Positions 903 through 4,179 of a DNA stretch of 17,672 nucleotides are shown one piece after another; the stretch's first letter is position 1; the number at the start of each line of letters is the position of its first letter. The notes beneath the pieces are model-generated. The model did not search any database, was not told the origin of the DNA, and saw only the letters and a program-made list of their open reading frames with translations. Both the position numbers and the translations under genes were made by a program. Source of the DNA: Anaerolineae bacterium (GTDB taxonomy: Bacteria; Chloroflexota; Anaerolineae; 4572-78; NAK82); NCBI GenBank assembly GCA_030597485.1, contig JAUVRU010000007.1:1-17672 (forward strand), written 5' to 3'.

Positions 903-1601
903 ATGGCAAGATACCTGGTATACATAGAGACGACCGGCGACCCGATCACAGTCAAGGGGCCGGTGGCTCACGTGCCGGCGCTGCCGGGCGCGTCGGCGCG
1001 AGGACGGACAACGGAAGAAGCCAGAGAGAAGATCAGGGGTGCCATCGAGGAGTACTTGTCGCTGCTGCGAACTGTGGGTGAGCCGGTGCCCAAGGCAGGA
1101 GAGGACATCCACCTGGAGTTTGAGGAGGTTGAGGGCACCACCTTTCTCACCGACTACGATACGCTGCGTCCCAGCGAAACGGAAACCATCTTTCGCTGGA
1201 TGGCCATCTCACGCCAGGAACTGGTGGACCTGCTCAAGTGCATCTCAGAGGAGGCGATGGCCTGGAAAGCTGACGAGAATGCGCAGTCGATCAGTGAGAT
1301 CGTCTGCCATCTGGCGGAGTCCGACCTGTGGTACACCGACCGACTCAAGCAGTGGCCCGCCATCCCGATGTTTCGACTGGCAGCCACCCGGGGCGTGGCC
1401 CTGGAACGCCTGCGCGCCCTCACCGAGGAGGAACGAGGCCGGGTGATCCATCACGAAGGGGAAGACTGGACGCCGCGGAAGGTCATCCGTCGTATGCTGG
1501 AGCACGAACGCGAACACATCGCTCAGATTCAGGAGATGGCCGAGGCGCATCGCCAGCGGTCAGCAATCAGCCATCAGCAGACAGTGGTCAGCGGGCAGTA
1601 G
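903..1601 (+). CDS. HicB-like domain fused to DinB-like domain protein
   Basis: The 232-aa product has two parts. Residues 1-70 resemble the HicB/UPF0150 fold: an opening beta strand ARYLVYIE, a central VPALPG turn and a helix TTEEAREKIRGAIEEYL. Residues about 90-215 look like a DinB/YfiT four-helix bundle, with His136 (in IVCHLAES), His201 and His205 (HEREH) as the likely metal triad. Start: ATG at 903 with AAGGAG at 892-897. No HicA toxin gene lies beside it, so a toxin-antitoxin role is not supported. DinB-like proteins are metal-binding and often act as thiol transferases, but the substrate here is unknown. The last ~17 residues and the stop codon come from a low-complexity repeat (CAGTAGA units), so the original C terminus may have been elsewhere. 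Confidence 0.8.
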   Translation: MARYLVYIETTGDPITVKGPVAHVPALPGASARGRTTEEAREKIRGAIEEYLSLLRTVGEPVPKAGEDIHLEFEEVEGTTFLTDYDTLRPSETETIFRWMAISRQELVDLLKCISEEAMAWKADENAQSISEIVCHLAESDLWYTDRLKQWPAIPMFRLAATRGVALERLRALTEEERGRVIHHEGEDWTPRKVIRRMLEHEREHIAQIQEMAEAHRQRSAISHQQTVVSGQ

Positions 1602-1626
1602 ACAGTAGACGGTAGACAGTAGACAG
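1596..1626 (+). repeat. Heptamer tandem repeat (CAGTAGA)n
   Basis: Four consecutive 7-bp units (CAGTAGA, CAGTAGA, CGGTAGA, CAGTAGA) and a partial CAG. The first unit supplies the TAG stop of the HicB/DinB gene. Just upstream (1558-1595) is a looser series of GTCAGC/ATCAGC words. Such short tandem heptamers are common in spacers of Chloroflexi and cyanobacteria (general knowledge). No function is evident. Confidence 0.85.
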
Positions 1627-1692
1627 GAGGACACACGGTGCGCGATCCAGAGATATCCTGGCTGGAATTCCAAAACCGCCCCAGTGTCGACT

Positions 1693-1756
1693 CGCTGATT
1701 CGCTCATTCGCCGATTCGCTCATTCGCTGACTCGCTGATTCGCTGACTCGCTCATT
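1693..1756 (+). repeat. Octamer tandem array, 8 x CGCT(G/C)A(T/C)T
   Basis: Eight contiguous 8-bp units fit CGCTGATT, CGCTCATT, CGCCGATT or CGCTGACT with no interruption. The array ends 13 bp before the threonine synthase ATG and directly abuts its ribosome binding site (AAAGGA, 1758-1763). It therefore occupies the place where a nearby promoter or leader would lie. There are no spacers, so it is not CRISPR. Two similar units recur in inverted orientation at 3094-3120. Confidence 0.9.
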
Positions 1757-1810
1757 CAAAGGAACATCAATGAACCACGTTCTGAGCCTGAAATGCCTCA
1801 TATGCGGTCG
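1731..1810 (+). repeat. Left arm of 80-bp inverted repeat flanking threonine synthase
   Basis: Aligned by eye with the reverse complement of 3041-3120, this arm matches at 68 of 80 positions without gaps. It covers the last three octamer units, the ribosome binding site and the first 14 codons of threonine synthase. Similarity stops abruptly on both sides. The arms are about 1.23 kb apart. Confidence 0.85.
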
Positions 1811-3053
1811 GGAGTACCAACCGGATGAGGTGGAGTACGTGTGCCCCGACCACGGCAATGAGGGCATCCTCGACGTGCAGTATGACTATGCCCTGATCGG
1901 GCGGCGTTTCAGTCAAGGAGATCTGCTGCACGACACCAACTACACAATGTGGCGCTACAAGCCGCTGCTTCCGGTGGAGCCGGACTCCCCGGTGCCGCCG
2001 TTGACGGTGGGCTGGACCCCGCTGATGCGCGCCAATCGTCTGGCAACCGAGCTGGATCTCAGGCGCCTGTGGATAAAGGATGACGGCCGCCAACCCACCG
2101 CCTCCTTCAAGGATCGGGCCAGTGCCGTTGCCGTCGTCAAGGCCCAGGAAAAGGGGGCCCAGGTCATCACCACTGCCAGCACCGGCAACGCGGCGGCGGC
2201 TCTATCCGGCCTGTGCGCCAGTGTCAGCCAGCCCAATGTGATCTTCGTGCCCGAAGCCGCACCGCCGGCTAAGATCGCCCAGCTGTTGGTCTTCGGCTCG
2301 ACGGTGATGCTGGTCAAAGGCAGCTACGACGAAGCCTTCGAGTTGTGCCTGCTTGCCGCCCAGGAATACGGGTGGTACAATCGCAACACTGCCTATAACC
2401 CCTATATGACCGAAGGGAAGAAAACGGCCAGCCTCGAGATCTGCGAACAGCTGGGCTGGCAGGCTCCAGATCGTATCTTCGTCAGCGTGGGCGATGGCTG
2501 CATCATCGGCGGGTTGCACAAAGGGATCAAAGACCTGCGTGCGCTGGGCTGGATTGACCGCACGCCACGCCTGATGGGGGTACAGGCAGAAGGCTCGGCC
2601 TATATGTACCAGGCGTGGGCGAACGGTGAGGACGTGCTGACCAAGCCCCCCATCACAGCCCACACCATCGCCGACAGCATCAGCGCCGGGTTGCCCCGTG
2701 ATCGTCTCAAGGCTATGGCGGCAGTGCAGGAGACAGATGGTGCCTACATCCAGGTCAGCGACCAAGAGATCCTGGCGGCCATCCCCGCGCTGGCACGCGG
2801 ATGCGGCGTCTTTGCCGAGCCGGCCGGTGCCGCCGCCTATGCCGGGCTGGCGAAAGCCATCGCCGAGGGTCTGGTGGGAGCCGCCGAGCGAATCGTGGTG
2901 CTGGTGACGGGCAATGGGCTCAAAGATGTGACAGGTGCTATGAAGGCGATGGAGCAGATCGGTACCCGCGCCCACGTCATCAGGACGTCTATGGACGACG
3001 TGAAACGGACAATGGCCATAGATCAATCAGGTGCTGTGACCGATGGCATATGA
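1770..3053 (+). CDS. thrC: Threonine synthase (PLP-dependent)
   Basis: The product is 427 aa, a fold-type II PLP enzyme that would convert O-phospho-L-homoserine to L-threonine and phosphate in the cytoplasm. The N terminus carries a zinc-ribbon-like segment (CLIC at 9-12, CPDH at 25-28), typical of threonine synthases of archaeal and Chloroflexi type. Lys114 in TASFKDRAS is the predicted Schiff-base lysine; TASTGNAAAA is the Ser/Thr-Gly-Asn phosphate/carboxylate loop; GDGCIIGG would bind the PLP phosphate. The GVFAEPAGAAAYAGL and VLVTGNGLKD segments are also family-typical. Start: ATG at 1770 with AAAGGA six bases upstream. No homoserine kinase or homoserine dehydrogenase is adjacent, so a related activity such as a threonine/serine lyase remains possible. 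The gene sits between the arms of an 80-bp inverted repeat that includes its first codons. Confidence 0.9.
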   Translation: MNHVLSLKCLICGREYQPDEVEYVCPDHGNEGILDVQYDYALIGRRFSQGDLLHDTNYTMWRYKPLLPVEPDSPVPPLTVGWTPLMRANRLATELDLRRLWIKDDGRQPTASFKDRASAVAVVKAQEKGAQVITTASTGNAAAALSGLCASVSQPNVIFVPEAAPPAKIAQLLVFGSTVMLVKGSYDEAFELCLLAAQEYGWYNRNTAYNPYMTEGKKTASLEICEQLGWQAPDRIFVSVGDGCIIGGLHKGIKDLRALGWIDRTPRLMGVQAEGSAYMYQAWANGEDVLTKPPITAHTIADSISAGLPRDRLKAMAAVQETDGAYIQVSDQEILAAIPALARGCGVFAEPAGAAAYAGLAKAIAEGLVGAAERIVVLVTGNGLKDVTGAMKAMEQIGTRAHVIRTSMDDVKRTMAIDQSGAVTDGI

Positions 3054-3120
3054 GGCATTTCAGAGTCACAACGTGATTGATTGGTGGTCCTTCGAATGAG
3101 CGAGTCAGCGAATTGGCGAG
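3041..3120 (-). repeat. Right arm of inverted repeat; inverted relic of thrC 5' end
   Basis: On the minus strand this segment reads as a copy of the region around the threonine synthase start: octamer-like units, then the equivalent of the leader, then codons for INHVVTLKCLICHR against MNHVLSLKCLICGR in the real gene. The start codon equivalent is ATC, so it is not a working gene start. The segment overlaps the last codons of threonine synthase and fills most of the spacer before the glycosyltransferase. A further GTCAGC-rich stretch at 3160-3181 (minus strand) matches in type and order the words found at 1555-1595. Confidence 0.85.
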
Positions 3121-3195
3121 TGGGCTGGCCGGCAAAACAGCCCCCCACCGATGCCTGAAGGCTGACCGCTGACTGCCAGCAAACGGAGCCAGACA

Positions 3196-4179
3196 GTGAA
3201 CAATAAGCCCCGCTATACAATCGTGGTTCCCTGCTACAACGAGGAGGGCGGGCTCCACGAACTGCACCGGCGTTTGTGCCAGGTGATGGACCAGACCGGC
3301 GAAACCTGGGAAATGGTACTGGTCAACGACGGCAGCGGCGACCGCACGCCAGAGATCATACGCGAACTGCGCGCCAGCGACCCACGGGTCAAGATGATAG
3401 ACTTCGCCCGCAACTTTGGCCACCAGCTGGCGGTCACCGCCGGGCTGGACTATGCCCAGGGCGATGCCGTCGTCATGATAGATGCCGACCTGCAAGACCC
3501 GCCCCAGCTTATTCTGGAGATGATTGACCGCTGGAAGGAAGGCTACGAGGTGGTCTACGCGGTGCGCAGCCAGCGCAAGGGGGAAAGCTGGTTCAAGGAA
3601 TTCACTGCCAAGCTATTCTACCGCATCATCTTCCGCATCACCGACGTGGACATCCCGCTGGACACAGGGGACTTCCGGTTGATGGATCGCAAGGCGGTGG
3701 ACGCCACCAGACAGATGCGAGAGCGACATCGTTTCCTCCGGGGTATGACCAGCTGGGTGGGATTCCGGCAGACCGGAGTGTATTACGTACGCGAAGAGCG
3801 TTTCGCCGGTGAGACCCACTACCCTTTCCGCAAGATGTTCAAGTTCGCCCTGGATGCCATCACCGGTTTCAGTTACCTTCCCCTTCAGCTGGCCACGTAC
3901 CTGGGCTTTGGCATCGCTGGCCTGAGCGCGCTGGCTGCCTTGGCCGTCGTCTTTGCGCGGCTATTCATGGGAGCAACGCCATTCTACGGACAGGCCACCA
4001 CCCTGGTCGTCGTGCTCTTCTTGGGGGGCATCCAGTTGATCACCCTGGGGATAATCGGTGAATACCTGGGCCGCATCTACGACGAGGTGAAGGGCCGGCC
4101 CCTGTACATTGTGCGTGAGACTATCGGGTTTGATGAACCATCCAGGCAAGACGCAACCCATTCAGGAGAGAGTAGCTGA
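3196..4179 (+). CDS. Family 2 glycosyltransferase, polyprenyl-phosphate type, membrane anchored
   Basis: The product is 327 aa and resembles GtrB/DPM1/ArnC-type enzymes, which move a sugar from a nucleotide donor to a polyprenyl phosphate on the cytoplasmic face of the membrane. The GT-A domain shows [11 protein letters not shown] (7-17), the [10 protein letters not shown] nucleotide motif (42-51), ARNFGHQ (71-77) and the metal-binding DADLQD (96-101). The segment [11 protein letters not shown] (155-165) is typical of the bactoprenol glucosyltransferase subfamily. Two C-terminal membrane helices lie at about 232-258 and 268-290, followed by [15 protein letters not shown], a hallmark ending. 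Start: GTG at 3196 with ACGGAG at 3183-3188. Its TGA overlaps the next ATG by one base, so the two are translationally coupled although their biochemistry seems unrelated. The donor sugar cannot be read from sequence. Confidence 0.92.

Follow-up and report, generated by a model that had tools for sequence, protein, structure and literature searches.

The threonine synthase gene thrC lies between the arms of an inverted repeat in the window analysed here (the whole stretch of 17,672 nucleotides), and the downstream arm, which reads as a decayed copy of the beginning of the gene, provides its last codons and stop. The repeat is confirmed as real and statistically strong, and it most likely goes back to a one-off DNA-copying slip between short repeats flanking thrC. 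It is probably a lineage-specific inverted partial self-duplication, seeded by a template switch or one-sided repair between inverted octamer arrays. It looks like a presumably neutral accident, not a switch, and it is best regarded as an inverted duplication of an ordinary, repeat-seeded kind that later decayed.

The thrC gene (1770..3053, + strand) was identified as an open reading frame for 427 amino acids with a match to Pfam PF00291 (PALP fold family; E 3.6e-75) and homologues named threonine synthase; it is followed by a family 2 glycosyltransferase gene (3196..4179, + strand; Pfam PF00535). The first-pass annotation had reported 68 gapless matches over 80 positions between 1731-1810 and 3041-3120 read as reverse complement, and exactly this agreement was recovered, at the same coordinates. 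A repeat search of the whole window extended the arms to 1730-1811 (+ strand) and 3040-3121 (- strand), i.e. 82 nt each, matching at 70 of 82 positions (85% complementary) and lying 1228 nt apart, and this pair is the longest inverted repeat in the window. In a self-comparison of 1500-3250 the best gapless inverted score was 58 (+1/-1), against a mean of 15.6 for 100 dinucleotide shuffles; with a shuffle maximum of 26, the similarity is clearly better than that of shuffled sequence. The make-up of the arms had also been described correctly: the 5' arm comprises the last 3.5 octamers of an array, a leader with the motif AAAGGA and thrC codons 1-14. Matches between the arms number 26/28 in the octamer part (1730-1757), 9/12 in the leader (1758-1769) and 35/42 in the coding part (1770-1811), which bears out only roughly the earlier statement that coding and non-coding parts are equally conserved. 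When the low-complexity octamers are left out, the remaining stretch (1758-1811) still matches at 44/54 positions, for which a binomial estimate (match rate 0.26), scaled up to every pair of positions in the window, comes to 3.6e-9; low-complexity octamers are therefore no explanation of the inverted repeat. No Rfam family was matched in the window, and a promoter scan of 1400-3400 returned a single site, within thrC (shuffles average 0.4), and none in the leader or in either arm.

The surroundings of thrC are rich in short repeats. Upstream, the order is (i) a heptamer array of the GTCAGC / CAGTAGA type (about 1559..1626, + strand; TRF and array search), (ii) other sequence, (iii) an octamer array of the TCGCTGAT type with 8.2 units (1692..1757, + strand; TRF), (iv) the leader with AAAGGA and (v) the thrC start at 1770. 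Downstream, in inverted order, codons 14 to 1 are followed by the leader, three octamer units in opposite orientation (3096..3119, - strand; regular-expression array search), a GC-rich spacer (GTGGGCTGGCCGGCAAAACAGC...) and a short heptamer stretch (these last two at 3120..3180, - strand). The same order of repeat words had been claimed for both sides; by inspection, heptamers, octamers and thrC start do follow one another on each side, but the intervals between heptamers and octamers are out of register. The heptamer array also reaches the neighbouring reading frame at 903-1601, in which a weak UPF0150/HicB-like N-terminus (below the Pfam cut-off) is joined to a DinB_2 domain: its last residues, RQRSAISHQQTVVSGQ, are encoded by the array itself (1554-1601), and there too a repeat array appears to form the gene end.

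The octamer and heptamer words are dispersed in the assembly, and the leader and coding part is confined to the two arms. A search of the assembly with 1725-1830 gave 17 matches, two at the arms and 15 with octamers only. A regular expression found 16 octamer arrays in the part of the assembly that was read, for which array-bearing contigs were chosen on purpose; 10 lie outside and six inside mechanical open reading frames of at least 100 codons, some of which may be spurious. The arrays are thus degenerate, arranged head to tail, present in many places and mostly outside genes, as dispersed short tandem intergenic repeats are. The TAACTGA heptamer repeats of Beggiatoaceae and Cyanobacteria, as outlined in PMC4679880, are short tandem intergenic repeats of this kind: as here, short head-to-tail units recur at numerous intergenic sites, in some cases directly ahead of start codons, whereas the octamers differ from them in unit length and sequence, are degenerate and occur in both orientations. 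No description of such octamer arrays in Chloroflexota was found in a literature search. Two octamer arrays of opposite orientation also lie 75 nt apart on another contig of the assembly (L095, G000:C83; 5228-5267 and 5342-5397), and near contig ends in the related genome G003 there are long direct tandem repeats whose units measure some 25-60 nt (L181, G003:C147; L184, G003:C81).

A counterpart of the downstream layout, octamers followed by a GTGGGCYGGCCGG-type spacer and heptamers, is present on contig C514 (L105) between two other open reading frames and without thrC; the two align with a score of 56, whereas none of 1000 shuffles scored above 37. When the assembly was searched for 3115-3195, 22 matches were listed at E up to 1: the window, a match of the spacer on contig C107 (E 0.03) and others that mostly cover the heptamers; the C514 place is absent from these matches. 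Given a counterpart without thrC, the leader and 14 codons would suffice as the copied tract, and the downstream array need not belong to the copy and may, as this one counterpart suggests, predate it.

Judged by its protein sequence, the 5' arm is the donor and the 3' arm the copy, since the residues of the former agree with those of close homologues and the latter has amino-acid changes and no ATG. The 5' arm encodes MNHVLSLKCLICGR, of which all 14 residues recur in the homologues P0002 and P0003 and all but one in P0001, and the 3' arm translated in the same sense reads INHVVTLKCLICHR, with the ATG lost and three amino-acid changes. Four of the seven coding differences between the arms fall at codon positions 1 or 2, a pattern as expected if no protein constraint had acted in that sense. 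Past codon 14, a gapped extension suggested by eye scored 10, compared with a shuffle mean of 10.7, and 76% of 2000 shuffles reached 10; past its thrC-internal edge the copy thus shows no similarity above that of shuffles. The first-pass annotation had proposed, among other origins, the relic of an inverted tandem thrC duplication. An inverted duplicate of the gene's own 5' region is indeed present, but it is a short partial copy with nothing recognizable past codon 14. That a complete inverted duplicate once existed and was later deleted up to codon 14 is unlikely: the arms do begin upstream of thrC and extend into the gene, as those of a full duplicate would, but the alignment ends where it should have gone on, a search with 1758-1900 gave no other trace of a thrC duplicate in the assembly, and a second, large deletion would be required.

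The copy lies next to a change in the protein. The nearest homologues among 120 listed of 7905 found are P0001, P0002 (named Ardenticatenia bacterium; Ardenticatenia is a class of Chloroflexota) and P0003, with 97, 95 and 94% identity. Going by the name of P0002, the uncultured bacterium that carries the window probably belongs to the Chloroflexota. Over the first 419 residues, 406, 398 and 394 positions, respectively, agree with the window's protein; after residue 419 the three homologues continue with RIEVRS or RIEVWS and a stop, whereas the window has SGAVTDGI (residues 420-427) and a stop, encoded by 3027..3053 (+ strand). Codons 424-427 and the stop (3051-3053) lie inside the copy or at its edge, 3027-3039 is a changed stretch ahead of it, and the change point at residue 420 (3027) is 13 nt from the copy edge (3040). 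The few patterns tried for the window's C-terminal tail fitted none of the 120 listed homologues. P0001-P0003 were compared as proteins, and it is their tails, not their DNA, that bear on the ancestral state. Twelve differences in 82 positions would seem many for an event younger than the split behind the 97% identity, though the copy would have been free of constraint.

All 61 genomes searched with the thrC protein, the window's own among them, gave a match, and the loci of the best 30 matches were compared, comprising the window's own and 29 others at 63-85% identity. In oriented sequence, the region from 300 nt upstream to 150 nt inside the gene was scanned against the final 150 nt of the gene plus the 500 nt that follow it. 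No inverted copy of the gene start was found in the 29 related loci, of which L050 and L051 were not assessable (the contig ends at the gene) and L046 offered just 65 nt of upstream sequence. Short-repeat arrays are clearly inverted around thrC at L038, in G003, and at L048 (inverted scores 22 and 26; direct scores 16 and 16). L054 carries repeats in both orientations (inverted 14, direct 17) and was not counted as clearly inverted, and besides these three no related locus exceeded an inverted score of 12. In G003, which belongs to the same family and another genus, thrC stands between oppositely oriented arrays of the same octamers, without a copy; these arrays (L177, G003:C356; 79-174, 1039-1062 and 2435-2466, on both sides of thrC) have a polarity opposite to that in the window. 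At L048 the arrays are made of another short repeat, inverted on both sides of the gene. As for gene order, by eye, a family 2 glycosyltransferase gene apparently follows thrC in the G004 locus too, and in several other related loci a PLP-enzyme gene directly follows thrC.

The inverted repeat is unusual within the read part of its genome. With 1758-1900 as the query, the window's own assembly yielded thrC itself and 3040-3092 (E 4.7e-9), ahead of a match with E 0.2, and thus no further copy of the leader and coding part beyond the two arms. Inverted matches were also scanned for as pairs within one sequence, octamer-bearing contigs being picked deliberately and the rest by number. In the own assembly (G000) this covered 101 sequences including the window, with 542,096 readable bases of 2,942,156 (18%) and 14 contigs wholly N; six inverted matches passed the threshold, among which the thrC pair is the sole one with separated arms, the remaining five being palindromes at one place. 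In G003 (20 contigs, 167,214 readable bases, two wholly N), 19 inverted matches passed, 11 non-periodic and eight array matches, and among the 11 one has separated arms (29 nt, L191). The thrC pair is the single case of its kind in this sample of 18% of its own assembly and a small part of G003; since other array pairs in the part read lack such an extension, the proposed mechanism, if correct, seldom operates. In genome contigs, a pattern of 18 bases taken from the arm was found in 28 stretches, many from Bacillus-type species; the one examined, L016 (Chloroflexi), is by eye an ABC-transporter coding region and was set aside as a chance match.

The history that we consider probable would start from degenerate octamer arrays, of the sort dispersed in the assembly, flanking thrC with opposite orientations. 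While DNA was being replicated or a break repaired, a strand end of the downstream array would have primed on the upstream array; synthesis would have continued for 54 nt through the leader and thrC codons 1-14, and the strand would then have returned to a point close to the end of thrC. In this way thrC would have gained new last codons and a new stop, plus an inverted duplicate of its beginning; that duplicate would afterwards have decayed unconstrained. Like the product of a template switch, the 3' arm is a reverse-complement copy of a nearby stretch (70/82, above shuffles). Priming similarity may have been offered on the array side by the octamers, in register at 26 of 28 positions, though these are perhaps themselves part of the copy; the array match could instead belong to one longer copied tract. 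Mutations that arise when the template is switched between inverted repeats are known, as presented in PMC8604942 and PMC8794818. Shared with the thrC case, as far as these accounts go, are a nearby reverse-complement copy thought to be seeded by inverted similarity, an altered coding sequence and a possible stem. The examples in these accounts concern short repeats or stems of RNA genes, whereas at thrC a distance of 1.2 kb separates the arms, the tract measures 54 to 82 nt and the presumed seeds are dispersed tandem arrays.

The long mRNA stem suggested by the first-pass annotation is predicted: the arm duplex has a calculated energy of -124.2 kcal/mol, and when 1700-3195 is folded to minimum energy, 74 of the 82 bases in the 5' arm would pair with the 3' arm. 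It is nonetheless quite improbable that the arms form a selected device, in which the 3' arm, by pairing in the mRNA with the leader and the start codon, would damp or stabilise thrC expression. Such a stem is expected from any inverted copy; the mismatches show no significant sign of selection for pairing, four of 12 being G-U (p 0.13 under a simple 2-in-12 expectation, with little power from one sequence); the inverted copy was not seen in the 29 related loci (two of them not assessable); and the leader would presumably be covered by ribosomes before the 3' arm is made.

A fold-back chimera of the assembly is very improbable. The assembly is fragmented (72% complete, 545 contigs), but a fold-back artefact should be near identical and the arms differ at 12 of 82 positions; moreover, the thrC reading frame stays open up to its stop codon, and the copy's edge adjoins the point of divergence from the proteins of the homologues. 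The same divergence bears on the invertible unit that had also been proposed. In invertible DNA segments, as in phase variation, inverted arms surround a segment, and at thrC inverted arms likewise flank one gene; here, however, the arms are diverged and partly coding. That 1811-3040 flips through recombination between them is hardly credible, given perfect runs of 20 and 18 nt at most, a divergence that frequent exchange would not leave and the lack of a recombinase among the 10 window proteins scanned with Pfam. A mini-element, of which several copies would be expected, finds no support, the leader and coding part occurring nowhere else in the assembly.

It is a long shot that Chloroflexota short-repeat arrays seed gene-start copies onto gene ends, remodel C-termini and make giant 5'-3' mRNA stems, and that the stem over the thrC ribosome-binding site tunes threonine synthesis here. 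The locus clearly illustrates, in nature, how part of a gene can be duplicated in inverted orientation with one end of the duplication in a dispersed short-repeat array, and a biosynthetic enzyme owes its last codons to the inverted copy. Should events of this kind prove recurrent, the arrays would give rise to altered C-termini and to long mRNA stems.
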